A DNA stretch of 64,000 nucleotides from Trichuris trichiura (Eukaryota > Nematoda > Enoplea > Trichinellida > Trichuridae), in NCBI GenBank assembly GCA_037903355.1, contig JBAJFE010000014.1:2418001-2482000 (forward strand), written 5' to 3'. The notes under the pieces are model-generated. The model was not told the DNA's origin. It did not search any database and saw only the letters and a program-made list of their open reading frames with translations. A program made the translations under genes and the position numbers. Position 1 is the stretch's first letter, and each line of letters begins with the position of its first letter. Shown one piece after another: positions 1,590 to 43,851 of the stretch.

Positions 1590-1830
1590 GCTTGAAAACT
1601 GGATGTTTTGTAACGGGTTGAATTTTCATGGTTGTAAGGTCTTCTACGGCTTTTCCAGTTTTTCGTTGTGCTGTTATCTGTAATTAAACTAAACAACTGC
1701 TCTACCAACGGATGGATGAGCCGTTATTAAGAAAAGTACAGATATCAACGCACTCAACTGTTTTATTGTTCAAAGCTTTCGGAACGCTCTAGTTCCGTCG
1801 TCAGTGAGGTGGTGGACGTGTGCGTATTAA
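1590..1830 (-). repeat. Dispersed repeat copy carrying a hammerhead-like motif
   Basis: Shares the phrases 'cttgaaaactggatg', 'taccaacggatggatgag' and 'ttccgtcgtcag' with copies near 21.1 kb, 36.6 kb, 43.0 kb, 52.95 kb and 59.4 kb. Read on the minus strand it contains the CTGACGA ... GAAAGC motif (see the ncRNA entry at 1770-1807). The ends of the insertion are not sharply visible and no target-site duplication was found. Confidence 0.6.
1770..1807 (-). ncRNA. Hammerhead-ribozyme-like motif
   Basis: On the minus strand: TCA, then CTGACGA, C, helix GGAAC / GTTCC around a 6-nt loop, then GAAA, GC, TT, then TGA. The outer TCA/TGA and inner GGAAC/GTTCC can both pair and both differ from other copies (CCG/CGG and GGGTC/GACCC) by compensatory change. 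This matches the core CUGANGA - helix II - GAAA - short helix III - UH - helix I of type I hammerheads. The one deviation is an extra C-G between core and helix II. Activity is untested. Confidence 0.5.
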
Positions 1831-3376
1831 TGAATAACATTATTAATTTAAGGTAGCATTGTCATTAAATCAAAAGGAATACAGAGCATTCCATTGGATA
1901 AGGCAGATTTGAAAAAAGTGGACCCGGTTATATGCAGTTTTCTCTGTAAATTTACTGGAAGGTTTCTCACAGACCTCTGAGATAAGAAATGCGTAGGCAT
2001 ACTAATTATGATGAGGCTTTTCATTAATCCATAATATAAGCGTACACGCTAACTCACCAAATAATCTTTTGTCATTTCTTACCGAAAAAGAAAATCAAGT
2101 GCAAGGCTTGCATAGAAGTGGATAGTTCACTCGCACATATGCATAGTAAGTTACTGATACTTGAAGGTAATTTACCGAACTCCCGCGTAATCCAATGGAC
2201 AACTGTTGTTTACTGTATGCATGATATATAAGTTCGATTTTCAATGCGCATTATCTTATAAAAATTTTCATAAAAAGATGAAACAGAGTGCTCATGCAGT
2301 AGCGTCTCGCATTTGAAATTAAAGTTTTTTCTCTCTTCGTACTCTCTTTTAGTTATTCTCTTCTGCTATATATGCTAATTTGCAGCTCAAGAACAAGGGA
2401 AGTTTGCATGAAGAAGAAGCAAATAAATTGCTTTTTGCAGTCGATTTCCGCATGTGTAAATGGAGAGCGCGAAATTCATCACGATTATAAAGACTCCAAA
2501 CGCGGATGAATTTCTTCCTTACATATCTGGTAAAACATACTTAATACATCGTTGAGAAAAACAAATTTACATGCTGCTCACACCCTGTTGAAGAAAATAT
2601 CGAGAATATATGCAACATATAATTTTTTTAATGAAAAACTTTGCTCCTGCTGATAGAAAACATTGCCAGTACCTAAAGGGGGAAAGCGTATCCACTAATG
2701 GAATAAGATGATGTCAGCAAAAACGAGAACAATGTCATTGTGCATTTTAATAATCAAAGTTTTCCGAACACAGTAATTTTGTTAACTGCTCTTCACACGT
2801 TCGGATTTGATGAAATACCAGACGTTTTTAAATGTATGCGTCAGTTTTCATATTCAAGCCAAGTTTGTTGCGTTACTGCACTTTAACATGCGAAAAAGTC
2901 TCACAGCTTTCGGGACACGTTTGTTCAGGTCTTTTGCGTCTTGAAATTCTCAATCCGCTGAAGACCAAACCGAACGGTAACAAACTCGCTTTGGACATCT
3001 TCAGATGCTATAAATAAAATCCGGCAAGCACGTATAACTGCCATTCTGATTTTTGCTCCCCGCCATTTCATTCACTCTCAATCACCCATTCGAAGCCCTA
3101 AATGCATTGGTAGTAATTTCAATATATTCAACCTGTGCAAAGCCTATCAGCTCTAAGTTTTAAAATATAAAAGCTTGTGCATTAGCAAATTAAGTGCGAC
3201 ATTGAAACGTTTTCATTTTCGTTGTCTTCTGCGAATGAACGCCTTTTTTTGCTTGCGTATACCTTGAACTTGGGTTAACGTTCAAATGAATTAATGATAT
3301 CTTTACATGAAAAGGTATTCATCCGTAAAATTTTCTGAAGACTAATTATACCATTGAAAAGTTAAGACAAGAGCAG

Positions 3377-6300
3377 AAGCGAATTTCGTGCTGATAGTTA
3401 ATTTTCTTTTCGAACTACCCAATCCCATTGCAAGAAGTGGGCATCGAGTCGTAACTACCAAATACAATATGATTTGTATCGGAGGTATGAACACAGATCT
3501 ATGGAATGAGCGCAGTAGGCAAATGGCGTGGCTACCGGTTCTTAATGAGGTAACACGCGGACATGCTGACAGTTGGTGACAACCTGAAGCTAATTTCAGA
3601 TTTGGAAATTGAATTTACTAACCAACGAATGGAAAAGGATGAAACCGTTTGGAGAATCTCCGGTTCATCTTGCCTCTCATTCGAGTATGCTACATTCCAG
3701 ATTACTAACTTTTAATTAAGGACATAGTATTGGCGACTAAAGATAATGATTTTAGCTGTTTATGTTAGCATTTTTTGACAGACGTTCAAGCGCTAACCAA
3801 ACGTACCCCGCTAAAGCCATAAGATGTTCTCATGTTTTAACGTCTTCCCTTTACTTAATATTCTTTTCTCTACTCGCATAATTGCTTAGTTATCTACTTG
3901 CTGCTTCTTTCCTATCTATATCCATTAAATAACATTTCTTAAAAATCTTCCTTTTATTGGTTATTAATTTACACATTGTACATTTCAGCAGTTACTTTCT
4001 TCTTTGAATTTACCAACTTAAACTCACCCCAATGGCATGTACCCATATAGCACTGTTGGCGGGGACGAAAGATCCCGACTAACGTTAGAATGTCTGCTAA
4101 AAAATGCTAACCAAAGTGCCCGAAATCCTTACGTTTATAGGAAACAAATTATTAACTTGCACTTTTCAAATCAGCATTCCTCCTTCACTGGCAAACTTTG
4201 CTTTACGCCGTAATTAAACGCAAACAGATAATGACCGCAATGAATAGTGGTTTAGGAGAGTACACTGAATTGCGAGGCTCAGTGCTACCTGAAAACAATG
4301 ATTCTATAACATTTTACTAACATTTTCAAACGCATTGATTAATAAAAATTAAGCTCACATTTCAATAGTTTTTGCTAATCAAAAATGCGTTAGCCAACTG
4401 GGATTTTGATGAAGATAGTACGGTTATGAATACGCGGCAACTTGTAGCGGGTTCCTAAATCTCCGCAGTAGACTTTGATTACGGTAGTATCCGTTCGTTG
4501 AAATAAACTTTATTTCTTATCAGAACTCTCAGGACTACGACTGGCCCGTCTTCAGCGATAACCTGTCACCAGCGTAATCAAAGTCCACCATGAAGATAGT
4601 ACGGTTAACCCTACTGTTGTAAATTTCAACGTGCAGCCCCCAATATACACTTGGTAACTCTTTACTGATGACAACACATATCTAATGACAAAGCACACGA
4701 TTTCAAAGAGAAAAAATAAGCTACCTTAACAGATTATTAAGCTAAGCTATGACCTGGAAGAGACCCAAGCTGAGAGCATCCCTACTGCGTTTCAGGTGGC
4801 AAAATTCATCTTCCGAGTCGGCATATTATTCTGCTAGCACCTAGCCATAACCTTATCTATGCCAGTAATGCTGTGACAAGAAAAGGCCTTATAGACAAGA
4901 GTAATTTGAAAAAGAGGTCTTTCGATACTCTTCTGTTCGCATGGTCACTATAAGGGTCATTGAAATGCGTGGAGGAAGATGACGGCATGGTATGGTAGTT
5001 GTATCATTCGAGTTTAAATAGAGGTTTAAGCTTAAACAAGATTCAAGTTAATTTAGTGTATTAATTTTCTGACATCCGGTTTTTTGAACAGCACTTGCAC
5101 GTTTGTCGCTCATGGAAACTCAGTGACCGCTGTTGAAACAAGCATTATGACGCAAAAGCATTGCTTCATAACTGAGTAGGCCTATGTGCAAGTTGCACAG
5201 CGTTATGCGGAGTTTGAGTAGTAAGTCGAAAGATCGAATGACCGAAATGCTGAATGATCGGAAGACCGAACCTCAAAATAACGAATTTCATATTACCGAA
5301 AGTGGAAATATTCAATGATCAAAATGTCGAAAGTCAAAATACTTAATGGAAATTTTGAAAAGCTGAATATCGAAGGCTGAATTTTCGAAAGGCCGAAGTT
5401 CCGAGTAGAATCTACCTTTGTTATCTGCGGTCTTCTTGTTTGCAAGTTCTCTGTAACGCGGCTTGTCCGGGATAAAGAGTGATGTCATTTTTAACGGGAT
5501 GCTGCCGCAGATTAGAACAAAGCGTTCCTGCTGCACAGTCATACAAAAACGCTAGATCAATGTTTCTGAAAGTCAGGGCCCCCTTGTGAACGTTTCGGAG
5601 CATTTGGGCCCCCAATTCTCATTAGTTAATTTTGAGTGCGCTGATTGGCTGGAAGGGAGGACGGAGGGTAGCTCCGGACGTCATAATGTAGGTTGCACAA
5701 AGTTCTGTGGGAAAAGTGTTTCCCAGATAGTGAGTAGGGCACTTACTTTCTCACCTCTAAGCCGGTTCCCCTGTCCTCCCTTCCAGCCAATCAGAATTGC
5801 GGGCTGCAGCGGTATACAGCTTTCTCTTAGGCAGGAAGCACAATACCTGACCTAGGCTATACCTTCCTAAGCACTTCAACGCGATGGCCCAGTTGAGGCA
5901 TTTGCCCCCCCCCTCTCCCCCTCCCACAGCTCAAAATTGTCCCCAAGGGCCCTTTTGGCTATTTGAGCCCCCTCCCGGACTTCGAAAGGGCTTCCCGGTG
6001 GGGCACACGTCCCAGCGTGAGAATTATTTTGTTAGGTTGTCATGTCCAGCAGGAATGCGCCAGTATCCGTGAAGAGATGTCTGACATACCGCACTGTAGG
6101 GAATTCGCGAATAGGTAAACTGCGGTTGAGGGTCGACTGCATTCGGAATTTCGACAACTCGAAGTTTCGACCTTTCTTATTTCGACTTTCAATATTTTTA
6201 CCATTCTGTAGCATGACGTTCGATATTTCGAGTTTCATTGCTTCGACGATTTCATATTTTGACCATTTCGGTTTTTCGACTTTTTGCCAATCGTCTTTCT

Positions 6301-7810: not shown

Positions 7811-7974
7811 AAATAAGCTCCCGCGTACAACTGAACTGTAATTAACACATCCCTTTCAAACAGTTGCAATATTTTGCTTCAAAAGTTAACCGAGTAAATT
7901 GGACACTGTTCAAGATCAATAGGCAAAATTCATGCTAGCATAAGTGCTGCTTATCTGTTACGTAGTTGATCAGT

Positions 7975-8130
7975 TATTACGGAATGTCACATTGAAGTAA
8001 GCCAGAAAAGCCTTTATTTCCGTAGCTTTCAGGCCGCGCGTCTCGTCCTCAGCGGTACAAAAATTAATAAATAAAAAGTTCTCTTGCTTATTTGAACGGG
8101 ATGTATTCCGTAATTACCGATAAACTACAT
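7975..8130 (-). repeat. Decayed copy of the hammerhead-like fold-back family
   Basis: Begins with TTATTACGGAAT and ends with ATTCCGTAATTACC, an inverted pair shared with the 20 kb elements. On the minus strand CTGAGGA and GAAAGCTA are recognisable, but the intervening helix is eroded. It lies just 3' of the KLHDC10-like stop codon. Confidence 0.5.
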
Positions 8131-8731: not shown

Positions 8732-11475
8732 CAGGTAGTTCTCGTATAACGCGTTTTCGGTCATACTCGATTTTGAAATCGTAGCACTTTCTCACATAAC
8801 GCGATTCTGTTTCCGTTCTTACGCGAATTTGCCAGCTGGAAAGCGTGGGCGTGTGGCAAAGTCTCCCCGTGTTTTCATCCACCGAGAGCAAACAAAGGCC
8901 GCGCTTTTAGCTTATGCGCGTTCGCGGTCACGAACAAGCGAAATGTGACAAAAACCTTTAGGATTCTTATCACAAGTGGTGTCCGACCCAGCGGTGCACC
9001 CTGGAATATGCATACTCAAACAGGCTACTGATCGGTATTCATGTTCGGTGCAATAATTTGCGCTTGCAGGAACATCTGCACAGACGATGCTTGCATTTTC
9101 AATTCTCCCGAAGCGCAGACATCGCAGAGCTTTTCCAGTGAGTCGTAGTACGCTTACACAGAATCTGGAAAGCATTCACACCGTCTGATTGCGAGCACAA
9201 TTCGTAAGAATTTTGTCTGATTCCGCTATCTGAGGATAGTCTTTAAGTATCTGAAAATGTCTAAGCTTCCTTATTCGAAGTCACCTGATAGTGGTGGAAA
9301 AGGAAAGGCGCTGACTGTTGGAGAGAAGTTTGAGATACTAAAACGGTATCAACTCAATGAGACGACACGTGATATCGTCAAAGCTACCGGCATGAGAAAA
9401 ATCAACCTGGCGGACCATTAGGAGCAATGCAGAAAAAAATAACAGACTTGCGTAAGCGGTACCAGTTCAAGTATTGCGATGTCAATAAGAACAAGGCCTA
9501 AGATACTGGAAGAAATGGAAAAACTACTCACCATTTGGATCGAAACTCAAACGATGAAAAGAATAGGAACAACGTTTTTCACCATCAGACAAAAAGTAGT
9601 TACCATTTACGAAGACCTTAAGAAACAGTCTACGAATCCTACCGAAATTCCTCCATTTACTGCTAGTAGTGGTTGGTTCCGCCGTTTCAGGAATCGATAC
9701 AGTTTTCACAATGTTCGTCTCTGTGGCGAAGCAGGAAGCGCGGACTTCGATGCTGCACAAACATTTCCAATAGAAGTACAAAACTTGGTCAAAGAAAAGG
9801 GCTACTGCCTCGATCAAACTTTTAACTTCGACGAGACAAATCTTTTTCTAAAGCGTATGCCAAAAAAGACCTACATTTCCAGAGAGCGTAGGCAAGCTGC
9901 AGGAATCTGCGCTGCGAAAGATCGTGTGACTGTAAATGCTCGGTGCTAACGCTAGTGGGAATCTTAAGCTGAAGCCATTGATGATTCATCCTCAAGCCAA
10001 TCCACGAGCTCTAAAGGGAATTGTTAAAAGTAGTTTCGGCGTTTACTACAAGTACAGCAAAAGAGGATGGATGACCGCCCAAGTTTGCCTTGATATTTTT
10101 TCTAATGCTTATGTGAATGGCATTAAGAAATACTTGAACGAGAAGAACTTGGCTTTTAAAGTTCTCGCAATCATGAATTGCGCGCCAAGCCACCCACCAA
10201 TGATAGCTGAGCTAGACCCAAATGTCCACTTTGTTTTCTTGCCTGCACGGACCACTTCTTTGTTACAACCGCTTCATCAAGGCGTTATCGGAGCATTCAA
10301 AGCTTACTACTTAAGGCGAACGTTCAAGATGCTGATCAACGCGACCGACGGAGAAAATTGTGAAACTGTGATGGAATTTTCGAAGAACTATAACCTGAGA
10401 ATGGCCATTAACAACATCGTAGAAGCCTGGAAATGACGTATCGAAACAGTGCTTGCGCCGTGTTTGGCGGAAACTCATCCCAGATCTGATCTGCGATTTT
10501 AAAGACCTTGAGCCTTCTGCTCAAGTATGCGAAATTACTGAAGGCTGCGTTCAGTTGGCAAACAGGCTAGGTTTTGAAGGAGTGGAATATCAGGATATTG
10601 AGGACTTTTTGAATTTTGAACCGGATGAGCTGACCACCGAGGAGCTGCAAGATCTTTCTGTAGCAGGGGAAGCAGAAGGAAGAGAAGAAGATGATGAAAA
10701 TCAGGAAGTTCCTCCGCCTCCTCCGCGACAAATGACCACTGCTGAGCTGTCAGATACCCTGGAAACTATTGAACAGCGTTTACAATGGCTTGAAGACAAT
10801 GATTGTAATGCAGAACGCAGCGGGAAAACCACAAGATGTATCCGAGCTTGCTTGGAGCCATACAAGCAGCTGCTGTACGAAAGAAGTACACGTGCGAAAC
10901 AAAAGAAGCTCGCATTCTACTTTACTGCAAGGAAGAAACATTATGACGATGAGGAAGCGCTACCTTCTACATCTAATAGGACCTCAGTTCGCCCGTAAGA
11001 AAGGATAGTGAGATTTAAAAAGTGAGTCCAACGGAACTCCTTTCTTTCCTGGGTATGAGGTCGTTTATTTTAGTACTGAGAGGGACTCTTTCCACAAGCT
11101 AAAGACGCAAGCACACCGCTCCTGAAAGCCAGTTTGAACTCTGTCCGCTGTAAAGAGTTCTATCATAAAAGCTCTGCCGTTAATGTATGATCGCCGCAAA
11201 AGATAATGTTATTCAGACCCCGTGTAAGAGGATCCATACGTCAGCGTGCCTAACGGTAGAATAAGTAGCTCAGGTACATCATAATTCCTGTTTCTACCCA
11301 GCTTATTTAAGATATCTCTCCGTTGTTGTTTACAAGTAAACAATCCTTTTGACGCTTTGAACTAAATCGTGATTTTCCTATACTTTACATGTCTCCTATA
11401 ACGCGACTTCATATAAAGCGAGATTTTTCAGGATTTTTAAGTGACCAAACGCTCGCGTTCTATGAGAACTGCCCG
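8732..11475 (+). mobile_element. Tigger/pogo-family DNA transposon, decayed, 2.74 kb
   Basis: Left end CAGGTAGTTCTCGTATAACGCG at 8732, right end (reverse complement) CGGGCAGTTCTCATAGAACG at 11475, with TA on both outer sides (8730-8731 and 11476-11477). These are imperfect terminal inverted repeats plus the TA duplication expected for Tc1/mariner-superfamily pogo/Tigger elements. Between them lies a single transposase in broken frames (see 9257-10998). At 2.74 kb it is a full-length autonomous-type element that has died by point mutation and indels. Confidence 0.85.
9257..10998 (+). pseudogene. Tigger/jerky-type transposase pseudogene
   Basis: CENP-B-like transposase. The N-terminal helix-turn-helix is readable from 9257 (ALTVGEKFEILKRY) and ends at an in-frame TAG near 9419. 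The second DNA-binding domain and the start of the DDE domain read from 9479 (FDETNLFLKRMP carries the first acidic residue) and stop at about 9949 after a frameshift. The rest of the DDE domain is in another frame at 9936-10436 and the acidic C-terminus in a third at 10453-10998. In this copy the second and third catalytic positions look lost: MNCAPSHP stands where LDNAP-type motifs carry Asp, and PLHQGV where PMDQG is usual. It cannot encode an active enzyme. Confidence 0.85.
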
Positions 11476-17179: not shown

Positions 17180-20100
17180 ATGGCTTTTGTACTTCTACTC
17201 TACTATTTGACTACTCCATGCAGAAGCTTCAACTTGGATACAGACTTTCCTGTGTACAAAGTCGGACCGCCAGGCACTTTTTTTGGTTATGCTGTTGCTC
17301 AGCACTTTCGAGACGACGAGCCGCTGTAAGTTGACTAGTAAAATTGCTTCAGTGGGCGGCCGAAGGTTTTTACAATTATGAGGCTCATCGGTGCTGCCGC
17401 GAGCTCATAGTATAAATCGAGGTGCAGCTTTAATTGCATGGAAATGTTATCCTCGAAGCGATCAATCTTAGCACAGGAAAATAATAATGACTCAATTCGA
17501 TTGCTCGGTCATTCTCTCTGATTGATCTCCTTGGGCATCTGCGTGTCGTAGTATTCATGCGTTGGGTTGCCTGATTCACTGCCAGGTCAAGCTGTTGTCG
17601 ATGACATGATTGTCAAACATTTACTTTTCCCTTGTAACTTGTTGTCGCCCAATGACATACGTTCTTTTCTTAAACAAAGTTGCAGCAGCGCTGAGTACGC
17701 TGTCGCATTACATCAGTTTCAAACACGTCTATTAGTTGAAGTATAGTTAGACCCATTTGTTAAAATTTAGCTGCTACCCTGAAAATGCGCTGTCACTTTT
17801 GCCATAGCACTTTGTTTAACGGGAAAGCAATTGATAAACGAGGCTGAACAAGCAAAACTCACTTTTTCAGACAGAATTAACTGAAACGTCTGTCAACGTC
17901 TTGCGCGATTACATTAACCTGGCATGTTTGCGTTTTACAACTGAATGTGCCCGGTGGTTGTTTGCTTTCTTTTCAACCACTAATTGTTTCGTTATTCAAG
18001 GTGGACCAGCCATGCAGGAGAGTTGTAGACGTCATTTTAACCAGTACGCCGCTGTTGCACTGTGGAATTTTCATTCTGAAAAAATTTACAGAGATTGTAG
18101 CTGTAATCGTATTGTCGACAGTAGTGCTGTTTAACTCTCAAAGAGTTTTCTCACCGCGTCTTTCAACGTACGAAAATAAAATACTATTAATACTTCGAGG
18201 CAGCTTTTAATTTAAATCACCCATTGGGCATATTTGAGAATGAAGGATTTGAAATGCATACATGCTTTTCTTCCTTCATCTTCTTCGTTTTGAATTCTGT
18301 TAAATGTTTGCAAAAACAGTGCTCTGTGCCGTGCTTCGCCTTCAGCCTTTCGAAGCTGACAGCTACAAGCAATGTTTTAGTAGTAACGGCGAACGAACTA
18401 AAGGTTTTATGATATTACTTACCGAGTGACGCGTTATAATAAGACGCTGAATGAAATGTAGACAGTAACTTTGCAAAAGTGTCGTTCACCTTCGTGCCTC
18501 CTTGCGCTCAAGAAACGGGCCGACGCTTTTGTAAGGCTCTGCTCTATGTTGAACGTTTCATTATTACCGCAAGTCTTTCCGTAAATAAGTTTATAAGATG
18601 AGATTGCATGTAGCCATCAAATATCTCTGCTGCTTTCGCCGATTTCTTTAAGCCGTTTTACCATAAATGTCTGTTAATAAAAGCGTTGAATTCTGTGCCG
18701 TTGTCTACTGACTTTTTTGTGTTTTCAGCCTCCTTATAGGTGCTCCGAAGGCAGAATCTGGACAGGTGGGTACGATGAAAGCTGGCGCTCTCTTCTCCTG
18801 TCCGATCAACACCATCTCGAGGGAGCAAAACGACTCATCTCGTAGAGCGCTCTGGTGCGAACGAGGTCGGATTGAATACCCGACCGTTGATAAAAGCGCA
18901 GGAGTGGACTTCTACAGCAGTCGTAAATGACCGCACGCATGTGCCTACTGCAACTGTGATCAGATATTTCAAATACTTCAGCACCTAATTATTTCCGCTT
19001 CGAAGATATACTCAGCAAAAATAATCAGTGGCTCGGTTCGACAGTATGTAGCTCTGGCCGCGATAGTCGCGTCTTGGTGAGTATGTTTTTGAATTGTAGA
19101 TACGAGTAGGGGAAGATATTCCCTTAGCTGAAATTCAGAACGCTTAAAAAAGTCGTAGCTTTTTTGAGCTGTAGGATGACGCCACAAGTAAAAAATTCTG
19201 CTTATCAATTCAAGTGACGGTTCAAAGCAGTTCGTAAAATCAAGGAGACAATTAAAAGGCAGAGTTGACCGGTGCAGGTGGGTGTAAAAAAGTCGTATCG
19301 CAGGGTACGTCAAGCCCCTGATGAACCCACTTGCTAATAACTAAGTTGAGGTATTTATAAAATTATTCCATGCTGTGCTACGTGTATGCGTATATAAAAC
19401 GAGAATAAATTTCTTACCTAAACTCGCACGGTACCCGAAACATTGTAGCTCATATTGAAGCATCTGAAAATCCGTAAAAGTTTGAAATCTGAGTTCCAGC
19501 GCGTACTTACAGGAAGTTATCGTACACCGTTGTACATGCTTTTCATTAACATTTCTGTATTACACAAAAATCAAAAAAGTAATTGTAAGATAAGAAGCAG
19601 TAATGAAAGAATGCTGCTAGATAAGCTGTATTTTACAATTAAAAATATACTAGAACAGTTGTCGCGTCCAAGCTTGTAGAAACTACAGCTTTCTTTTCCT
19701 TTCTGCTCCTATTTCGGAATAAGCTTTTGTCACAGCAGATATGGATGAGCCAGTTACGTAGTCCCCGTAATGCGCATTCTAGTTGATGAAGCATTAATAA
19801 GTTCAACTTTAGATAAATGCTGTTGCTCTTTGTTTATACAGCAGCTGCTTGCGTGATGTAAAATACTCGGCGGTTACGACCAGAAGATAGAAAAGAACGA
19901 ACAACGTCGGTTCTCATATTTCAATGTCTTTATTACGGTAGCAGTGTCCCGTTAAATGAAAAAACTATCTCCGGAGCTTTCGGGTCTTTCGCGACCCGTC
20001 TTCAGCGGTATTACACATAATCTCACCGCTGAAGACGGGTCGCGGAAGACCCAAAGGTCCGGAGATAGTTTTTTCATTTAACGGGACACTGCTACCGTAA

Positions 20101-23100
20101 TAAAGACATTGAAATATGAAAACATACAGTCCCGTACTAAAACATCACGTTTTCAGAACAACCTCGGTTGGCCGAATTTTTTTGCTATCTGAACTACCTC
20201 TACTGTCATAGTATACTTCGGATAGTTGAATTTCGGAGAAATGTGGTGTGTCGGTCAGGTTAGCCTAGCAATTTGTTACAGTATGCGCGGCATGCGTAAC
20301 AAAGTTGCTGAGGTTTTCTTGGCGAGGGAATTCACTCACCCAGAATAGCGAAACACTGACTCACACAAAAAGATTTCCATATTTAAAATGCATCCCTTAT
20401 TTATCGGTTGTAAGTACAAATCAGTGTTGGCGCGTCCTTTATAGTATATTTCTTGCCCATTCGAGATGTTATCCCGTTATGCATTGGGATCCACTGATTT
20501 GCTGCTGTAGTCTAATGCAGAAAACAATTCTCTCCTTCGTATGTAATGTACCTGCACCTCAGCCTGCTCTGGTTTGAGCTGTACTAGATTTCAATCCGCT
20601 TTTCTTTTTGATCGCTTAGAGGTTTCAGCTCATTCACTATTCCGGCCTACTCAAGAATTCAACCCGTTCGGTAAAAGAAAAGATTTGGCCAAATGACCAT
20701 TCTTGAAAATGTGATTTCTTCGTACGGGACCGTATATTTTCATAATGCAAAGGTTTTATTACGGAGTAGTTCCCGTTTTAATGCGCGTAAACTCCGGAGC
20801 TTTCGGGTCGACCGGGACCCGTCTTCAGCGGTTGTGATCTGATCTGAGCTGTAGAGATCACAACCGCTGAAGACGGGTCCCGATCGACCCGAAAGCTCCA
20901 GAGTTTACGCGCATTAAAACGGGAACTACTCCGTAATAAAACCTTTGCAAATGACCATTCTATATAACAGCTGTGGCCCGTTCTTGAGTTTCACTGAGAA
21001 ATATTCTACACGCTGTGTCTGCTTGCCTCATTTCCTACTCGTTTTCGTCGCTAGTTCATACGATATGTTTTCTTGCCCGTTGATGGGTTCTGAAATTAAA
21101 CTGAAGCAAATGCCCTACCAACGAATGGATGAGCATTTATTAAGGAAAAATACAGAACAAGTACTTAAACAGTTCGGAGCTTTCGGGACTAACCTTGTCC
21201 CGTCGTCAGCGATGGTGGTAATGTAATCGCTGACGACGGGACAAAGTTAGTCCCGAAAGCTACGAAACTGTTTAAGTACTTGTTCCGTATTTTTCCTTAA
21301 TAATTGCTCATCCATCCGTTGGTAGGGCATTTGCTTCGGTTTAATTTCAGAACCCATCAACGGGCAAGAAAACATACCATATGAAGTAGTGATGGAAATC
21401 CATTGCCCCGTTAAGAAGCACCCCGTCTTCAAGATTTCCTACTCGTCACATATCTCCAATGGCAGATTTTTAAAAATGAGTACACTTACTGGTGCGTACA
21501 AGAACTTTTTGTAGGCAGTATATTGCAAGCTCAAAGCGTGTTGCACATTGTCAGTTTAGCTTGCATAAGACAAGGTAGGCTATAATTTAAAATTTAAGTT
21601 TGTTCGCAGGTTTGTGCGCCTAACCTTATATACGATATGGCGTACATCGAGGGTGCATGTTTCTTGCTGCGAAACGATTTATCCCACGTGAAGCGAATAC
21701 GCACCTGCCAAGGTTTTACGAAAAAGAATCGCCATAACGACTACGGCGTTTGTCAAGAAGGATTTAGTGCTGCACTTTCCGAGGTGGGAACGACGGAGGA
21801 CAAATGTTACACAATATAATGTTAACAATGATTAGAAACACGAAGTAATAGCGACTGGCTTACCAGGCGCAAGCCGCTGGACCGGTGGCGCTTTTGCCCA
21901 AGATATCGATGAGGCGCAATCGACTCTACATTCTCGCTGGACAGCCACGGTGCGCGGTGATCATGCCGTTGAATCGGTAGTCAAGGCTCACAGCTATTTT
22001 GGTCCTTGTTTTTCTTTATACTCTTTCCAAAATGTTTGAATATTTTTTCTTTAGGCTACTCTATCAACGTAGGTATTTTTGGATTTTGGTACGAAAAGGC
22101 TGGACGAAATGGCAACTTAACGTTGGTAGCTGGCTGCCCGAGGTGCAACGAAACGGGTGCCGTTTACTTCATGCCGTTCAGCAAAGAAGTAACAGTGAAC
22201 GACTACAGCGCTCTTCGGCTGTTGTCCGACCATTTCAATCTTACCGGTGACGAATGGTTCGCTTCTGGTTTTGGTTACTCCGTTGGCGTAGTTGACATTA
22301 ACGGCGACGGGTAGCGGCATCCAAAATTCCAATTCATTTTATACTACGCAACGCCTTTGTAGGTTTGATGACTTAGTAGTTGGCGCTCCCTATTTCTACG
22401 GAATCACGTCAACTGAAGTTTACGGTGGACGAGCTTACGTGTATTTTTCAATAGGTTCTAAGCAGGTACTTTCCGAAACATGGCTTTGCTTCACACCGCG
22501 TTTTTGTATTGCGTACGCGTTTCAGTCTAAAGACTTAAATGCACATGTTTTTCAAGAGGCGATCAGACTGTCGGGCCCGAAAGATAGTATGTTCGGCGCC
22601 TCAGTTGCCAACCTTGGCGATATAAACAACGATAAATTCAATGGTGCGCTTTTACAAAGTCTGTTTTTGTCCAAAGTCGCAGTTTGAATACTTTATACAG
22701 ACATTGCAATTGGCGCTCCTTATCATGACGATGGTGGCGCCGTTTACATTTACCTTGGTGCGGAAGCGTCAGATTTCGAGCGGAAACCGATTCAGGTTAT
22801 TTTGGGCAACAAATTGCATTTGTCGCCGCTGTCCAAGCCGCTGGAAACGTTTGGTTGGTCATTGTCTGGAGGAACTGACTTGGACAACAATGGCTATCCG
22901 GACTTGTTGGTTGGAGCGTTTAAGTCCGATGTTGCTGTCTTGTTACGGTATCGTCAGTTTACACGGATAGCTGGCTAAACGTTGAAGTCGATATTTTACC
23001 ATTTCAGAGCCAGACCTATAGTACACGTTGTCGCTTCAGTCGAGGAGACTGAGTTGACGCCTATTGATGTGGATGAGCAATATTGCAGCGAAGATTGGGC

Positions 23101-26100
23101 CAAGGCTTGGTAGACCATTGCGTCTTAATCTTGAAATAGGCTAAAGATTGTTTCAGTGTTCGCTTTCACACTAAGCTGCGCGTGAAACGTCAAGCTGTGG
23201 GACCTCAACTAGACTTTTCCGAAGACATTCTTAAGTGTCGATTGAAGGTACTCTCGCACGGCAGTTCTGCTCTTCGGGCAGAATTTGCCCATGGTGCAAA
23301 GTACGAAAGGGAATGGGCTTGCGGAAAAGGAGCCGTTGAGCAGCCCCAAGAAAAGGAACACGAGTTGTTCATTCGCGTATACACCTGCGACTTGCCTTAA
23401 CAAGTGCCTATTTTTTGAATGATTGGCTTTTTAGGATTCCAATAGAGACTGGCTGAACCCACTGAAATTTGAATTTTCCGTATCGTTGTCGAAGTCAAAG
23501 CCAAGTTTTTCTCGCGAAGCCGTTTCTCTTCCTGATATCAATGACCATCCAGTGTTGGACAAGAAAGGCTCAAAAAAAGAATTCATGGTACGCTATGCGT
23601 TAATAAAAGCCTATATTAAACTGAACATACGACGTTTCATAATTGTTTGTGCAACATGTTTTTATGCTCTGGGGTTCATCACAAAGCGCGGATGAGCAAA
23701 AGTCCTTAGGCCTAAACTAAAAATGGAGAACAATTATGTGTATATGATCTTTCCGTTTAGCATTAAGCTTAAGTGGCGTACGCCAACTGTGACGATCGGG
23801 AGAAAGCGCAAAAAATTTGACTACGCGAGATTTTTGTCCTTCGGGATATGGAAGCGCACCGCTTTTTTTAGCTACGAGAAACCGCCTATAGGACAACTGT
23901 TTAGTTTGGAGCTTTTGGGGTTGCTTATTTCCCATCTTCAGCACGGTAAAAAATGGATCAAGTGCATTTAGTTTCCTTCTTGATTGAAGTCGATACATAG
24001 GCAAACCTGAACGCTCCGAAGTACACTGGTGTCACGCAGGCGCGTGTTCTTCGTTTAGGATTAGCCGCAAAAGTAATCCTTTACCTGAGTTAATCTTTCA
24101 GTCTTAACTTTTTCCCAATGTCGTTTATGTTTATAAGTAAACTAAAGAAATGCCCTATGAAGAAGTGGATGAGTAACTAAGCCACGATAAACAGAATCCT
24201 TTATCAGAAAGATTTTTACCCAATTATATTCCGCACGAAGATAATAGGTGCCCACGTGTCGCACGAACGTGCTAGTAAGCCAATAGCGTGGGGCCTACGC
24301 TTGCAAATACAGCTCGAAAGTTATTTAAGTTAGGAAACTTCCAGAAATGAACGTATCTTTTGTCTCTGCTCTATGATGTATAGCTCTATATGCTTTTTAT
24401 CCCTCCACATTATTGTTCCGTGAAGTGTTGATGCTTTATTTGACAATTTGAAATCTGAAGGTGTCTGAGCATTATGAACGCCTCATACTGACTTAGGCTT
24501 CTTCCCTCTGGCTTTGCTTTACTGCACGCATACGTATTGACTCTTTTACTTCTAACCTGATAGGCTAGAAACAGGTAAACTGATTGAAAAAAGTGAGCAT
24601 AGCTGTTCGTTTCGTTTAATTATAAAATATGTTGTAGATTGAGTTCAACAAGAAATGCGGTCCAGACAACAAGTGCGTCAGCGACCTTGCCTTGCAATGC
24701 TTCTTTGTTGACTTAGCTAGGTACACCTTTTCTAATATATCTGCTTTCTTTGAAAGACACTGCTTGTCAGGGAATCGAAGTCGGACGTTTATGTTAAGCA
24801 AGTAGGCAAGGACGATGAGCTGGATTTGCAATACCGTTTGTTGAACAAAGGAGAACGCGCTTACGAGAGTTCCTTATTTGTGCTTTACAATGAGGACGAA
24901 TTGGAAAGGCCGATGCTATTGCAAAAGGTTTGGTTTGCATGGATCACTTTGGCAGAGTACAACCGAAGAACTTTCTTTACTTCAGGCGCATTACGGCCTA
25001 AATTTTGGCAAGTTCGAAAATGGTTTAATTGAAGTTTTGCTAGGAAACCCCTTAGAAGCAATGGCTGAGGTTGTAGAATATGCTACAGTAACTCTTTGCG
25101 TCTCGTGAACGTCTGCAGTTTCAGATTGTGTTTAGTCTAAGGTTTAAGCTCACGCGAGGTCGTTCCGAAGGATTGGGCGACGTTTTGGTGTTCGACTCAT
25201 ACGTCAATAGTACCAGCATGGAGAAATATGAAGACGACAATAGATGCAAGGCAAGCGTGAAGGTTATTAAAAAGGCAGAATTGGAAATAGTTGGTACCTC
25301 TGATCCCCAACTGGTTTATTTTGGCGGTAAAAGTTTCGGACAGTCGGCTGTCGAGTACGAAGAAGATATAGGCCCGCAAGTTGTACATACATATTTGGTA
25401 AGCTTTGTCAATCACTAAGTAGCGCGGGAGAAAGTCGCACTTTCTTCTGAAGGTGAGAAATGGAGGGCCATGGGGTGTCAATGATGTTACAGTTACCATT
25501 GATCATCCGTACCAAATCAGCGACATGCACGTTCGAGGAAAATGGGCTCTCTATTTGATGTACCTACCAATAATTGAGCTTCCCATACCTGGAAGCACAG
25601 TACGTTTTCCTTTATTAGCTTGCCGTTTTGTGAAGTCAACAAACATCCTTTTTTTAAAGACAACAGAAACCCGCAATTGTTATGTCGACTCGATGGCAGA
25701 GTACGTAAATCCCTTGGAAATCAAAGTAAGCGTTGCTACAAAAAAAGCTGCTGCATTTCTGCTTCGCTCAATGCACGTACTAACTGCTGAAGCAATTTTA
25801 ACAAGCGTGCTTTTTTTTTCAAACAAGCTCTTATGCATTGCGCATGGCTTGGTTGCATTTGCCATGTAAATCGATAGTAGTAACGTTTTCCACTCCTCCG
25901 TAGGGTGCATTTTGGGACCGCGAAGTCTCCGAAGTGACAAGATCAAAGCGGCAGGTACTGTAGTCGAACCCATTTTTGTTTTTGCTATTCCCAAGTGTAC
26001 CAACACTCAATGGCATACTTAGCAAACGGTGACAGCAGTGCTTGTCTATTGTTAACGAGTTTATGCTGGGAGGGCCATTGCTACATGGAGGAATTCTCTT

Positions 26101-30809: not shown

Positions 30810-30882
30810 TAACTCAATAAGCAGGTTACTGCCCGTCCTACTAGCAGGACAGAAGCCAACATGAAATAATCGTTTACTTCTA

Positions 30883-32605: not shown

Positions 32606-35600
32606 AAATCCATCAGTTTACAAAGTCGCCTTCAACTCACATCTTACCGTACACAAGAAAAAGAAAAATATACGCAATCCAGCGCAAGAACGAAAGCATA
32701 GTAACGCAGCGGAGAAACACAACTCGCCGACCAGCTATCGAAGTGGAGTAACGACGCGTCGCAATGCGTGACAGGCAGTGAAGGGGCGTCTGCGCTCAGG
32801 TCACCTGCGGCCGGACGAAAGCGAGGCAACAGACGGGCATTAACTTTTTCAGCCGCTCCGCACGGTCACGCTTAGCGGTCGTTGACTCGGTTTACAAAAA
32901 TGGGCAGCTTTGTAGTAACCCATGGAAGCACAGCCGTCCGGAGATGTTGCAGAAAGATCAAAAAGTAGTTCATTTCAATGAAATAGCATAATGCTATCAT
33001 CCCCTACCTGCCTGATGTAATTCAAGTACAAATTACAGATGCGTTACCATTCAGTACAAAGCTAAATTGCGGTCGTACACGAAGCTGTCAAAGAAATCTC
33101 ATGTAGGCCAGTTGTATTCAAAGACTCAGTTGCTTCCGACTGAGTAGTCCACAAAGAAAAGCGACTGCGAGAATTAAGGGAGAGGAAGCAAAAGTGAAAG
33201 CGTGAAATTTTACTTCCTGTTCATACTGGATTTCACGAAGGAACCGATGTGAGCAAAAGCAGAATAGCTTTGCTTTGTGAAGCACTAACAACATTAAGAT
33301 AAGTAGGAGCACGCAGTCCCCATGACAATGCACATTGGGGAACGTAAACTTTTAAAAGATGTATTTTGCATACGAACCTACCAGAACTAAAGAAATTACA
33401 CGCTAACAGACAAGAGATTGCTTTTTCCTTGCAAGAAGACAAGTTCAAGAAGACTACACAGACAGCAATGGTATGTAGCGAAAGCAGTAAGCAACGGGTC
33501 TGATTCTAAATAGCAAAGCTTGCCGCCTACAGATAGAGGCATAAAAAATCAGCTAATATAAATCATTATGGTTAGGACCTTCATTAGGGCAAGCAACGAA
33601 TCAGAACAGTACTAAATATGGCTTTTCTGCAAACGCAAACGGTTAGCAAGTTTCATTTGGAAAACAGCGCACCCGCTATCTTACTTTCATTAAATATGAG
33701 AGACAAATTGTGAAACTCTATGACCGTTTCTAAATCAGGAAAACGCTTAGCGACGATAAGAGATACTTTATCATCTATTTGCACGAACTACCTGCATTGG
33801 GCTCAGAACGTTGTTTCTTCGTGGATGGATACGGCTTTTTTTGAACTGGCCTGTTCATAAAGCTGACAGATAGCGTCTATAGTCAGAGAGAAAATCAATG
33901 CATGATGCATATTGAATTATAAACTCTCTTTACTGACTTGCCAGTCCCGTAGCCAACTGAACTTCTAGATTTCACAACGGCTAGTATTAATCAGGACTTT
34001 TTTAGTACAGACGCAAAGGTTTTGCCGTTGTCATATCTGTTATTTTCAGGAACAAATTCTCAACCGAACCTTCATAAACTTCTCCCATTGTCAGGTAGAT
34101 CAATCGTGTTAATATCATTACGCTCAAATGATTTCGTCTGCACACTTCGTATATTAATTACAGTTAACAGAAACCAACCAACGGAGAAAAGTTTTAAATA
34201 CTATACATCTAAACGATAAAGCAATGTGAAGGCTGATATATTTACTTTATACTTCGAACAGCCATATTTAGTGTTCCGACCTAAGTTGTTCAGTTACGAA
34301 TGTACGAAAGCATGAAAGTACAAAGGCAGATAACAGTGGTGATTTCTAATTTGAAGCAGCTCCTAGAATGAACTCGTTTTGCTATTAACTTTAAGGAATT
34401 CCGCGCGCACGCCGCTAAATTTGAACGATGGCCAAATTAGCCTCGGAACTTCAAACTGGAGGAAACCTGGAAATTTCGGCGACAACTTTCAGCGACAAAA
34501 GCGCGCTGCTGCTTTCGGTGGAAAATAATGCACTTCGCCACGCTTACTTTGTATAAAAGCTATAGCTGTCATTTCCCAAAACAAAGTCTTGACGACTTGC
34601 GTCTTGCACGAGAAAAAGTTGAAAGAGACAAAAAGCAATATCGGACTCCATACCTTTTCCCAACGCCAAGGCTGATAGATGACTAAAAAATAAACAGGAA
34701 ATTTCTATAACACAGCCTAATTAAATATGGAAGGTCTTGTTATGAGTGTATAGGTTTTCGCGCCAGATCAAACGCGATTTAACCTGTTTGAACATGAAAA
34801 ACACAATCAAAGTAAAAAAGGAAAAAATTAAAACAATTCATATCGCACTCACTGTAACAATATTTAACAAAAATCCTGTTGTTTCGGTCTTTCGCGTCCA
34901 TTCACGCCATTTGCTTCGAAATATAAGCCGGTAATTTCCAATGTGGGGTTTGTCCCCTCCTTGACGACGACAGAAGCCGAGAGGGTGTTAGGGAAAAATG
35001 CGTAGAGGCCGAGAGAGCGGGACGAAGGTTGCGGTTACAGATATCACATGGAACATAGCATTCCTTGATGCGGCTGCGTAAGATTTCAAAACTTTACTGT
35101 TCCTTAAGTAACGCGTTTAACATGTTCAGAAAACGAATAAAACGATCTCAGTGGAAATTTCGAGACTCGAATCGTCCCATCTTTAGCGTCTGCAAAACTG
35201 AACTGCTATTAGTATACGATTGATCGAGGAAGACGTAAGGGAAGAAGACAAACATATACCTCCAAAGGTAGCGATAGTCCAAAAACGCTTAAAAACCACT
35301 GTTGTAGGTTTATGACCGTTTGCGGAACGGCATTACAGATACTGTCAAGTGTACCTGATAATATTTAATGACGAACAAAGCTTTGCTTAAGCCTGAACTT
35401 TGTTTTTTGCAACTTTTACTGAAGTCATAAAATATTACTTTTCTTAAATAATGTTCATGTTTCCTATTTAACTTTTAGTAGCCACTGTAAATAAATATAA
35501 ATGCCCTTGAAAGTTTCTTTAACGGATGCGCCAGTTTACATTATACGCATCAATTTAACTTGTTTGGCGATTGCAAACTTTCCCTGATGAAGCTTTCGGG

Positions 35601-36559: not shown

Positions 36560-36723
36560 GGTCTTCCATAGCTTTTCCCGTTTCTTTGTTACGTAGTTTG
36601 TATCTGTTAGTACATTGAGCAACTGCTCTACCAGCGGGTGGACAAACGATTTTTTGGGCAAAATACGGTGCACGACTAACTTCTGGTCGTAGTTTCGGAA
36701 CGCTGTAGTTCCGTCGTCAGCGA
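36560..36723 (-). repeat. Dispersed repeat copy with hammerhead-like motif
   Basis: Contains 'caactgctctaccagcgggtgga', a diverged version of the family signature. At 36687-36723 minus it has TCG, CTGACGA, C, GGAAC / GTTCC, GAAA, C, TA, CGA. Both helices pair; the spacer between GAAA and U is one base shorter than in other copies. Lies between FKBP12 and PPIL1. Confidence 0.55.
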
Positions 36724-39560: not shown

Positions 39561-41715
39561 TCAGCAATCCGCTTTCATTTTTTCCAGTGAAGCTTGCAAT
39601 GCTTCTGCCACGTATGCCATACTCGGTCTAAGATCCATATTAAAATGGAACATTTGGTTCATCACTGTCGCCGCATCCGGCGGCATTTCCAGTGGTGTAT
39701 GCAAACGGTTTCCCTCTTTTAGGTATTGAAGCAAAGAAGGTCCATCTAATGGATCTAGTTCGAAGTAAGGTAGGCTAGCATCGGTGAAAAACTCCCACAG
39801 AAGCACCCCAAAACTCCATACATCCGATTTTTGCGTCCATAGCCGTTCATGGAGAACTTCTGGGGCACTCCATCGCACTGGGATATGTTGAGCTTTAGCT
39901 AAGCGATACACTTTCGTTCTGTCTCTGCTTAGGCCAAAATCACAAACCTTAACTGCCTGCGGTTGGTTTTCGACAATGTCTACGAGACAGTTGCGCGCTG
40001 CCAAGTCTCTATGAAGGATTTCTAAATACAAGTCTTTAGCGCGAAAATTTTAAACAAGCGGATAACTTTAACATTGATTCATAAAATCATTCTTCACTGC
40101 ATTAGTGCATATAATTACCGTTCTTATGGATGTGTGCTATTCCTTGAGCTGCTGACACTGCCAGTCTCAACTTCACGTAAGGGGTTAGTTTTGTTGTACG
40201 CAGATATTTATCCATGCTTCCGCCTGGAAAATTTTTCTAATGATTTCAAAGGGGTAGTCGTATATGATATGTAGACTACCGCTAACGTACTCCAGTAGAA
40301 CCATTGTAGCATCTGAGGAGATTGTTACGCCGTAACAATAAACAACGCCTGGATTTTTTAATTTCCGCATTATGCGAGCTTCGCGCAGCAGCTCCTCTCT
40401 GCCATTTTCATCTTCTGGATTTTGAAGAGTCTTGACCGCAAGTTCCATTTTCTTTCCTTGAATTGCAATCGTTCCTCTGTAGACTGCCCCAAAATTACCC
40501 TAAACACCTGTGCTTGTAATGACGTCGAACCAGGAGGCATTTAGGATAAGAAAAAATATCTTAAACCTCTCCTAAAGGATCTTTTTCTAAATTTACTTCA
40601 GCATCTTCGAACTCCCAATGCTGTCTGCCCACGGACTTGATTAGAAATAGTTCACATTCGTCGATAAATGATATTGGAATTCGCTGCTTCCAATGAAAGA
40701 AAAGCAGCTCGTGAACAGTGGGAAAGGCGAATTCATTGAAGAAGAAATTCTATAAAAAGCATAATGTAAAAAAGAATATATATATATGTATATACATTTT
40801 CATACTGTGAGTTTTGTAGATGCTCAACTGCTGCTCTTAAGTGTCCTTATGTAAATTGTTTAATACAAATAGCCAATAACTAATTTAGCCACATAGCTAT
40901 GTCTTTATGCTTTTCATAAAAACAAGCTCAATGACTTGCATTTTGTTCTACTTGTCCGCATCTACCGATGTTCACCTTAACTTTGCTTTCTCCGTGCGAA
41001 GTAAACAGATGGTAGGAAAAATGCATCGGTTGATCAGCATCACGAACATAGGTGAGCAAAGTGCAACAATGGGTAGCATAAAAGCGTTGGTGAAACTTTA
41101 CTCTTCTAAGCAGAATAAACTTTTTATTTGGTTTAGAATATCTCGTATGCGACTATATTAATTTCAAACATTTTCTTCGTATACGTAGAAAACATATAGA
41201 CATATACAAAAAAAACGTAAGCTTAGCATGTCTTTTTCAGAACTTTGTTTTATTTTCGAAACTGAGAAAGCCAGGAAAACATTAACATAAATTTTAGTAG
41301 CAATCGCCTAACCTTAGGGAAGGGTGGGACTGCATTACTGACAGTCACTTTGGCAGTAAAGTTTTACATAAGTCGAGAATAGACTGTGTAGAAAACTTAC
41401 GCCGCAGTCGTCAACTGGTATTTGATAATGAGAGACGCTTTTCGTTGTTCGGATGGAGAGAACAATGGCAAACGTGTTTTTCGTCCTTTTGGAAGCTCTA
41501 ATGAGGAAATATCCCACAGGTGCACCAAGCAGTATGTCGTTAGCGTCTAGGCGCGAAAGCCTTGCGTGGTAGTAATTGTACAGCTCCAACGGAAGTTTTT
41601 CCAATTGTTCTTTCTGAACATTATTCAAATAAGTGCTTACATTGACTTCACCATAAAATGGTTGTTTAAGATTAAGACTGCTTTCCATTGCCACTTCGAC
41701 CAAGAAACAAAGCAT
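39561..41715 (-). CDS. Non-receptor tyrosine kinase, SH2 plus kinase (Fer/Fps-like)
   Basis: Cytosolic tyrosine kinase. Five exons in phase: 41715-41401, 40749-40567, 40499-40280, 40223-40119, 40021-39561 (TGA); up to 427 residues, or 418 if translation starts at the second Met (MESSLNLKQPFYG). The SH2 domain covers about residues 45-140 (YYHARLSRLDA, GYFLIRAS with the FLIR phosphotyrosine arginine, HWKQRIPIS). The kinase follows: Gly loop GEGNFGAVYRG, LAVKTL lysine, ILHRDLAARN catalytic loop, CDFGLSRD, WSAPEV, DVWSFGVLLWE. All catalytic residues are intact. No F-BAR, SH3 or membrane anchor is visible, as in the short SH2-kinases expanded in nematodes. The intron at 40750-41400 is 651 bp; the others are 67, 56 and 97 nt. 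Confidence 0.92.
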
Positions 41716-42416
41716 TTCATTTCCACAGTCAAATCAGTCAATCTTATTTTGTCGAAAGTTAAATGGAAAAAAGATTACGCTAGCGAAGTCAGTTTCAGTG
41801 TTGACAATTCTCAGCGTCCAAATCACTGTTACACATTTTGTATTTGCTGCATTTTGCATGCAATAATGCACAACTTTTCTTATCTGACCATGACTACGCA
41901 GTCCAAATGGCTAGACGCCGCGACCACATGAATTTCATTGCGATAGCTAGACAACGCTAATTGTTTTACTTTTTGTATACGCCCCTGTTGGTAAGTAAAA
42001 AAGTGTGCATAAACAAAGAACACATGACCAGTTATCAGCACGTAAGGCCCTTCTTTACATGTGTTCATAACTATGAGTCTTTCGAAATAAACTATGCTCC
42101 TACTGGCGTTTAGACATGTTACTTCGCTAGCGATGAAACATGTTCCTTTTAAAAGGGCCTTACAGAAAAGTACTTTAGAAGGCTACTTGGTTCACTTTAT
42201 TGACAGCTAGCAACCACTGAAAGAGCATTCATTCCTTATTTATTATGCATTGTAAAAAGATGTAATAAACCTGTTAAAAATGTTATTGAAATTCATGCTT
42301 GCGTTACTACTACCTGAGCAAATTTATCACACGTTTAGTACTGTACTTAATGAGTAAAGGTATTAGTTATGTTGTCTATTTCTCGCGCGCAATAAAACTA
42401 TTTCAAAAAAAATAAA

Positions 42417-42860
42417 GCTATAGAAATAAAATTTAAGTGGTTCTTACAGTGTGCCCAGGAGCTCCTTGTTCCACTTGTTTCCCAGGATCCAGACTTCGAC
42501 ATTTCCTTAATTTTAGAGAAGGCATTCGGTTAAATGAGAGAACCTGCATTCATTCCTTGTTGACTACTTACTCTTCAATTTGAGGTTTGACAGCATTCCT
42601 CAAAATGTCGATTGACAGTTGTCCAACTCTACCTTCACCTTTGGCTTTGCTAGGAAAATTTTCCTTAAAGGCTAAGCGTATTGCATTCAAACGACTTTTC
42701 TTTATTTCTTGGCGCATGATCAGCCGATCATATCTCTGAGTTTGCTCCCTCGCAGGTGTAGGTTGCCGGATATTACAGTCAGCTGTGACTAATGAACTAC
42801 GTTTCATATCCATTCGTACTGTCCGTTGATACCACCAGGAATTCCACTGCCAAACGGATA
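42417..42860 (-). CDS. Unrecognised small basic protein
   Basis: Exons in phase: 42860-42572 (after GCTGTCTAG; strong donor GTAAGT), 42505-42448, and a possible last exon from 42417 coding four residues and TGA. First internal Met at 42813. Very basic, helix-prone text: DRLIMRQEIKKSRLNAIRLAF and SKAKGEGRVGQLSIDILR. The N-terminal WQWNSWWYQRTVRMDM is Trp-rich. Composition recalls mitochondrial-ribosome or assembly proteins, but I recognise no family. Starts about 1 kb upstream of the kinase gene on the same strand. Confidence 0.5.
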
Positions 42861-42929
42861 CTAGACAGCAATCGCTGGCTGGAATTGATTGATTGTTTTA
42901 AACTTAAAGTACTGCTTCAGCTATTACTG

Positions 42930-43851
42930 TAAGTGTAGTTTTTCACGCTAACATGTCTTACGGCTCATACTGAATTTAAAGTAAAAAATAAAAATGATAT
43001 AATAACTTGAAAACTGGATGCTTCTTAACGGGCCTGAAGATGGGGTGAACCATCTTCGTTGAAGATGGGACAGACTTGGTTCCGAAAGCTCTGAACTTGT
43101 AATGTTGTTCTGAATTTGCCCTAATAACCGCTCGTCCATCCGTTGGCAGGGCGTTTGCTTGGGTTTTTCAGAAATCAAGAACAAGCATGACAAAACCGAA
43201 CGAAAAGTCGATCATGAATATAGTAACTTTAATCATTCAGTCGCGAGTGTCCAGTACTCGGATGCCAAGCAGATTTCACGGAAACTTGTCACTGCATACA
43301 ACAGCGAACGTCTTCGTCATAGACTTTTTCCAATCCCCTTGGAAAACATCTTCCTACTCACAAATTACGTTTTCATCATGATGCTTCTCCCAAAAATTGT
43401 CAGCAAAAGCATTATTAAGGATTACGATGTCTGCCAAAGCGATTCAAAATAGTTGTTACGGTTAGAGGACCGTGAGAAACTTGGATATCATTATCACCCC
43501 AGGTTTCCGCGCGGCAACCGCCGTTGTAGCACCTGGCAGATCACAGGGCGCCGATTCCTAATAAAACATTCACACGAGGTCACCTCTGACAGATCTACGA
43601 GATCACTGAGATTTGATTGATCGGTCTGTCAGTAATCCCTCTTGAACTCGTTTCACCTCAATTGTACTACCAGTATATAAGCGATGAATGTTATGCTAAT
43701 AAACCCTTTTGCTTACTGTACCTCAAAAACACGCCGAGTATGGTTACTAACACTTCATCCGCAACAATAGTGTTGCCTAGTTGCAATTGTAAAGGACCTA
43801 CTTGCTGATCAACATTGTGTACTATTCCCGCGGCGTGTTTTTTCTGTTTAA
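42930..43851 (+). repeat. Dispersed repeat (copy A of a pair with 59395-60177)
   Basis: Closely resembles 59395-60177 in the same orientation, from 'cacgctaacatgtcttacgg' to 'cattcccgcgg'. Contains the family signature 'tccatccgttgg' and, at 43056-43094 (+), the hammerhead-like series TCG, TTGAAGA, T, GGGAC / GTTCC (one G-U), GAAA, GC, TC, TGA. It is interrupted by a solo LTR at 43454-43766. The 97-codon open frame 43159-43452 is repeat sequence and is not a host gene. Confidence 0.7.
43454..43766. mobile_element. Solo LTR (313 bp) nested in the dispersed repeat
   Basis: Begins TGTTACGG and ends CCGCAACA (5'-TG...CA-3' with matching short inverted ends). It is flanked by the 5-bp direct repeat ATAGT (43449-43453, 43767-43771). 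The sister repeat near 60.1 kb has the uninterrupted site. Internal TATATAA (near 43674) and AATAAA (near 43700) fit U3-R signals on the plus strand. Its ends resemble, but its body does not match, the LTRs of the gypsy element at 53292, so it belongs to another family. Confidence 0.8.

Follow-up and report, generated by a model that had tools for sequence, protein, structure and literature searches.

A predicted minimal type I hammerhead motif with a well-kept extra base in Penelope-like elements of Trichuris trichiura

Minimal type I hammerhead ribozymes reportedly occur in the pseudo-long terminal repeats (pseudo-LTRs) of Penelope-like elements (PLEs), as Cervera and De la Pena (2014) and Lunse, Weinberg and Breaker (2017) are said to have described. 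These hammerheads have been reviewed, and the relevant passage of the review calls their role in PLEs unknown (PMC7761336). According to an excerpt of the report on PAc (Poseidon of Anolis carolinensis), its hammerhead cut only once protein was added (PMC11167929). The (+) hammerhead of chrysanthemum chlorotic mottle viroid (CChMVd) has an extra A at position 10, whose change to C was strongly detrimental and to U favourable (De la Pena and Flores 2001, as excerpted from PMC3705267). Here, a dispersed motif is described from a stretch of 64,000 nucleotides (nt) of the nematode Trichuris trichiura (contig JBAJFE010000014.1 of GCA_037903355.1, positions 2,418,001 to 2,482,000, forward strand), which is referred to as the window, and from the 72.7-Mb genome. 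The first-pass annotation, made from the letters of the window, had named the motif a minimal type I hammerhead of PLEs, and the kind is right, as judged by the core, the covarying helices and the fixed place and strand downstream of a frame with reverse transcriptase (RT) and GIY-YIG domains. Thus, the motif is very probably a minimal type I hammerhead of an already published class, its membership among PLE hammerheads being well supported. The kind is ordinary, while the extra base between the core and helix II is unusual and well kept.

The abundance of the motif is far above chance, with seven strict copies (core, helix II of at least 5 base pairs (bp), UH) in the window compared to none in 100 Markov-1 random windows. 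Genome-wide, the core pattern CTGANGA-N(17-25)-GAAANNTH is matched 6,479 times and its reversed-pattern control 500 times; where helix II has GGG/CCC at its foot and C before it, the counts are 2,279 and 0. A custom covariance model, R1, was built from 15 copies (the 8 window copies of the first-pass annotation and 7 others, all chosen for good helix II), and it recovers further copies in the window and gives 106 matches in 296 kb of examined loci, locus L011 being excluded from the scan. Among the 91 best of these matches (E <= 2.9e-5) there are 67 distinct rows, in which every core position required by hammerheads is at least 95% conserved, the lowest being G12 (64/67), resulting in the near-invariant core C3 U4 G5 A6. 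G8 A9 / G12 A13 A14 A15.1 / U16.1. Position N7 is free, having A in 33, C in 17 and T in 17 rows, and a G7 form is also visible in the genome-wide matches. Position 17 (H17) is C in 41, T in 19 and A in 7 rows, with no G, and only one of all 82 distinct rows has G there. Regarding the whole genome, UG at positions 16.1-17 is found 457 times (control 99) compared to 6,479 for UH (control 500), and with AGCU fixed these counts are 157 (control 6) and 4,652 (control 24). G at position 17 is rare, not absent; one repeated family with poor helix II accounts for 25 of the 100 UG/AGCU matches listed (e.g., G000:C2:647448-647480) and is perhaps a multiplied non-cutting form. As seen by the distinct rows and by the UH and UG counts, the type I hammerhead core is present, including U16.1 and H17.

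Compensatory changes in helices I and II, which the first-pass annotation had read from eight copies, were borne out by a covariation analysis of the 82 distinct rows (identical rows counted once), standing well above shuffles on most measures. Helices I and II alone are paired in 92.5% of cells compared to 77.5 +/- 0.9 in shuffles; double changes occupy 79 cells (20.4 +/- 3.5 in shuffles), and the covariation score reaches 0.435, where shuffles give 0.187 +/- 0.012. Versions of these helices slid along the alignment reach 64.7% paired at most. The outer pair of helix I is CG in 44 rows, UA in 12, GC in 10, AU in 5, UG in 4 and unpaired in 7, and the fourth pair of helix II is UA in 43, AU in 17, CG in 3, GC in 3, GU in 2, UG in 1 and unpaired in 8. 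These counts lean in favour of the structure, because the alignment was fitted to it, because copies are related and hence not independent, and because of overlaps between some loci (L013/L040, L010/L039, L027/L041 and L028/L043). In a listing independent of the model, the first 100 of the 6,479 core-pattern matches, helix II has at least 4 bp in 47 of 80 distinct sequences, whereas recombined halves of the same 80 give a mean of 19.4 and a maximum of 30 in 1,000 recombinations.

The place of the motif agrees with this assignment. The genome holds at least 71 GIY-YIG matches, of which 34 were examined (the 20 best-scoring and 14 in stretches chosen mostly for long frames), and 26 of the 34 are followed, 440-682 bp downstream and on their own strand, by a strict motif copy. 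Other placements are fewer, namely upstream-opposite in 5, downstream-opposite in 3 and upstream-same in 1 (a locus counted once per kind), and in the remaining 8 loci (L012, L015, L024, L025, L027, L028, L029 and L035) an R1 match (E 9e-11 to 2e-4) lies downstream on the strand of the GIY-YIG match, at a distance of about 450-650 bp, except in L012, where it is only ~40 bp. RVT_1 and GIY-YIG were both found in 7/7 frames tested, and the best-named protein relatives come from Trichuris muris and T. suis, the first five having 47-50% identity over 72-86% of the query. In L034, a direct repeat flanks the frame on either side (182/184 bp, 94.6% identity between the two), and each of these repeats carries a motif. 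Thus, the motif lies in the pseudo-LTR of an RT and GIY-YIG element, on the same strand, as seen by the 34 matches and, for the pseudo-LTR structure, by L034. In L034, L035 and L040, an ATG follows the predicted cut after 54, 54 and 51 nt, opening the PLE N-terminus in frames of 140, 140 and 331 amino acids with the common start MK.Y..VPR...FKTIQGVYGTP; other repeat copies with that start lie 51-74 nt from the predicted cut, and two in L047 at 121 nt. The general anatomy is the same as that of PLEs in rotifers and Anolis, as excerpts of PMC3846280 and PMC11167929 give it.

A nearly absent helix III, as in PLE hammerheads, had also been claimed, and this holds with a refinement, as the four bases A15.1-N-N-U16.1 are mostly a palindrome, AGCU in ~4,630 and ACGU in ~445 of roughly 5,980 excess matches (background subtracted). 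Genome-wide, GAAAGCTH is found 4,652 times (control 24) and GAAACGTH 512 times (control 67), and GC or CG stands between A15.1 and U16.1 in 68/82 distinct rows. Much of the AGCU count is explained by common descent, and the switch between AGCU and ACGU may be a single event. Both sequences are self-complementary, therefore two copies could form a helix III of 4 bp, as would be expected of ribozymes cutting as dimers; palindromic stem III sequences are known where dimers were proposed, according to an excerpt of PMC3088659. We infer cleavage, dimer action and gating of the motif along these lines. If transcription read through direct tandem copies, helix III would arise by pairing of two motifs via the A15.1-N-N-U16.1 palindrome, and the dimerised motifs would cut after H17, freeing a unit RNA whose 5' end would lie ~51-54 nt upstream of the start codon of the element.

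Helix II does not follow A9 directly, as one extra base stands between them, and at this one feature the motif departs from the strict hammerhead consensus. The first-pass annotation had described the base as C, and once T, in its eight copies; the T stands in 43056-43094. Counted in the GGG/CCC subset and in the R1 sample, this base is C in 2,279 GGG/CCC copies genome-wide, while 230 have a different one (83 T, 12 A and 5 G in 100 listed among the 230), so that about 98% have C or U; it is C in 59 and T in 8 of the 67 R1 rows. The pattern lacking the extra base has 14 GGG/CCC matches, 11 of them readable as G there, with 3 left. The U10 form (CTGATGATGGG...) occurs in head-to-head pairs, e.g., G000:C2:1790372-1790475, and has therefore been copied or multiplied. 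Decay of C10 to T at CpG was considered and dropped, with an observed/expected CpG ratio of 1.01 in the window, hence no depletion, and with U10 copies in copied head-to-head pairs. Similar animal motifs with an extra A at this place have been reported. That the extra C is new is not proven; among the literature matches listed, none joins hammerhead with Trichuris, nor Penelope with CUGAUGA. For comparison at position 10, no PLEs were found in viral contigs, and genome contigs gave one PLE fragment, on a contig that has no motif. This Penelope-like RT fragment (locus L050) sits at the edge of its contig, which carries the label of a Bacteroidetes metagenome-assembled genome; the fragment is probably eukaryotic material or a transfer.

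Regarding the predicted folds of seven natural copies, C10 and G12 are paired with a probability of 0.98-0.995 in all seven, and opening this pair costs 2.4-3.3 kcal/mol. G12 is regarded as the general base of the hammerhead (excerpt of PMC6155905). The prevalent C10 is expected to hold the ribozyme off, because its pairing with G12 is predicted, G12 is the general base and the change from A to C is detrimental in CChMVd. In the resting RNA, the extra C would thus pair with G12 and keep the ribozyme off, until dimerisation or the protein of the element opened the pair and turned it on. Tentatively, then, the conserved C10 (or U10) could be a built-in off-latch, kept so that cutting needs a dimer or the element's own protein. 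If so, the hammerhead would be a natural one that works conditionally, and the dependence of PAc cleavage on protein would be explained. Thousands of natural copies differ at this one place (C10, U10, A10, G10 and, very rarely, no base), therefore the control of such a ribozyme is testable on natural sequences alone. The same folding data fit as well a motif that descends from a hammerhead and no longer cuts, acting as a structured RNA signal, i.e., a binding or priming site for the PLE RT-endonuclease, with C10-G12 fixed in a 6-bp hairpin. The near-certain predicted C10-G12 pairing in 7/7 copies, a hammerhead fold that is not the minimum, C or U at position 10 in about 98% of GGG/CCC copies, the CChMVd change of A10 to C and PAc insertion in vitro, which was unaffected by blocked cleavage (excerpt of PMC11167929), agree with such a signal. 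However, a binding hairpin leaves the free N7, the rare G17 and the palindrome bracketed by A15.1 and U16.1 unexplained, and this reading is considered unlikely.

Several observations weigh against an active PLE hammerhead. Both R1 and the strict scan are biased towards conserved cores, and one of the five covariation measures is not raised, as 6 pairs have any double change compared to 5.6 in shuffles. Helix I has only 3 bp, no loop-loop contact was identified in the motif, and 14/82 distinct rows have no self-complementary GC or CG between A15.1 and U16.1. In the secondary-structure predictions for the seven natural copies, a hammerhead dimer appears in 0/7 minimum-energy dimer folds, the monomer folded as a hammerhead is 3-7 kcal/mol less stable than the minimum-energy fold, and the probability of helix I ranges from 0.06 to 0.80. 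Covariation of C10 with G12 was sought and is unconvincing, its 3 double changes being rows that lost G12, and the prevalent extra C is the very change found strongly detrimental in CChMVd (+), as excerpted from PMC3705267. In the excerpted results on PAc (PMC11167929), hammerhead mutants left insertion unaffected, and none of the RNA reads had its end at the cut site. Among neighbours of the ACGU family within 600 bp on contig C1, 8 pairs are head-to-head, 2 tandem and 0 tail-to-tail, with 0.6 expected at random (88 of the 100 places listed, 12 unrelated-looking ones having been dropped by eye). Finally, the Rfam hammerhead families, with which the first-pass annotation proposed to check the motif, gave no match at gathering score or up to E = 10, a negative judged to say little because the motif has no helix III and a 3-bp helix I.

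The eight copies named at first are all present in the window (Table 1) and, on re-reading, agree with their description bar small deviations: the core is invariant in general, with a T at core position 3 in 43056-43094, helix I is paired except for one mismatch in 20864-20901, and two bases separate GAAA from T except in 36687-36723, which has a single base. A further match at 35148-35192(-), with an R1 E of 0.028, is too weak to count as a window copy. The copy at 1770-1807 sits inside 1691-1815, which is 97.6% identical to L040:6867-6992.

Table 1. Motif copies and palindromic repeats in the window, with their R1 E-values or other basis ("in model", copy used to build R1)
Feature	Coordinates	Strand	Basis
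Hammerhead motif copy, GGAAC/GTTCC subfamily, U17, AGCU	1770..1807	-	R1 E 2.4e-12 (in model)
Decayed copy	4517..4561	-	R1 E 9.3e-5
Decayed copy	8017..8058	-	R1 E 4.3e-4
Head-to-head pair of Penelope-like pseudo-LTR pieces, 74-nt palindrome arms	19910..20155	.	palindrome and similarity
Hammerhead motif copy, GGGTC/GACCC, C17, AGCU	19971..20008	-	R1 E 1.9e-13 (in model)
Decayed partner copy, one GAAA base lost	20023..20065	+	R1 E 2.7e-9 (outside model)
Two Penelope-like pseudo-LTRs head-to-head, with arms of 95 nt that are 98% complementary	20701..20949	.	palindrome and similarity
Hammerhead motif copy, GGGTC/GACCC, C17, AGCU	20794..20831	-	R1 E 1.1e-14 (in model)
Hammerhead motif copy, one helix I mismatch	20864..20901	+	R1 E 6.8e-14 (in model)
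Palindromic head-to-head element with two motif copies	21042..21398	.	palindrome and similarity
Hammerhead motif copy, GGGAC/GTCCC, C17, AGCU	21174..21212	-	R1 E 1.2e-15 (in model)
Hammerhead motif copy, GGGAC/GTCCC, A17, AGCU	21227..21265	+	R1 E 3.7e-14 (in model)
Decayed copy	23903..23947	-	R1 E 2.4e-4
Hammerhead motif copy that has lost a base between GAAA and U16.1	36687..36723	-	R1 E 3.1e-8 (in model)
Decayed motif copy, U3 and U10	43056..43094	+	R1 E 4.4e-10 (in model)

The three groups of copies at 19.9-21.4 kb are head-to-head palindromes, a feature absent from the first-pass annotation, the third having arms of 133 + 41 nt. The first matches motif-bearing repeats of L033, L025, L034 and L035 with 77-89% identity over 76-152 nt and appears, by these similarities, to be a more distant pseudo-LTR pair than the second, whose matches to pseudo-LTRs of L030, L034 and L038 have 84-88% identity over 92-140 nt. 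The third has 47-74 nt of flank in common with L006, L031, L032, L037, L039 and L040. No PLE coding sequence was found in the window by tblastn with five PLE frames. The window copies are remnants of repeats, and several of them are paired head-to-head, an arrangement that would yield no same-strand dimer. Such palindromes, and the frequency of head-to-head pairs, could suggest a cruciform of a DNA transposon resembling miniature inverted-repeat transposable elements, the covariation being DNA strand pairing. This was rejected as very improbable, since motifs also occur singly, in direct tandem and adjoining RT and GIY-YIG frames, a cruciform needs no asymmetric invariant core, and head-to-head is the most frequent pseudo-LTR arrangement of PLEs, a known habit according to an excerpt of PMC3846280. 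The palindromes also have matches to mir-3913, mir-3, mir-3747 and mir-2, as microRNA precursors would, but all of these are below gathering score and accounted for by the long palindromes, and single motif copies have no long hairpin; this reading was rejected with next to no probability left to it. Elsewhere in the window, a Ty3/gypsy-type pol frame of 1,410 amino acids with RT, RNase H and integrase is located at 53492-57724(-), and pieces of a Tc5/pogo-type transposase (HTH_Tnp_Tc5, DDE_1) at 9479-10436(+).

Outside the window, the motif is also found in short tandem units, with one motif per unit, as a 218-bp dimer, 100% identical, in L044:373-808 and as a 475-bp array of 2.3 copies in L045:211-1280, and by their layout these units may be retrozyme-like derivatives. 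Returning to the minimal type I hammerhead of PLEs, the motif has in common with its published members the core, the near-absent helix III, the place in pseudo-LTRs, thousands of dispersed copies and the proposed dimer action, and may differ by the extra base, mostly C, in almost every copy. As in the excerpted account of PAc (PMC11167929), stems I and II adjoin the start of the PLE frame, the motif here being 51-54 nt upstream of the start codon in L034, L035 and L040, where the frame is long. Like metazoan non-LTR retrozymes, L044 and L045 are short tandem units with type I hammerhead motifs; however, the hammerheads of retrozymes make loop-loop contacts and, in most cases, include a helix III, as an excerpt of PMC7229834 describes, whereas the form found here is the minimal one of PLEs. 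In the CChMVd (+) hammerhead, too, a single extra base separates A9 from helix II (excerpt of PMC3705267); it is A in the viroid and mostly C or U in the motif described here.
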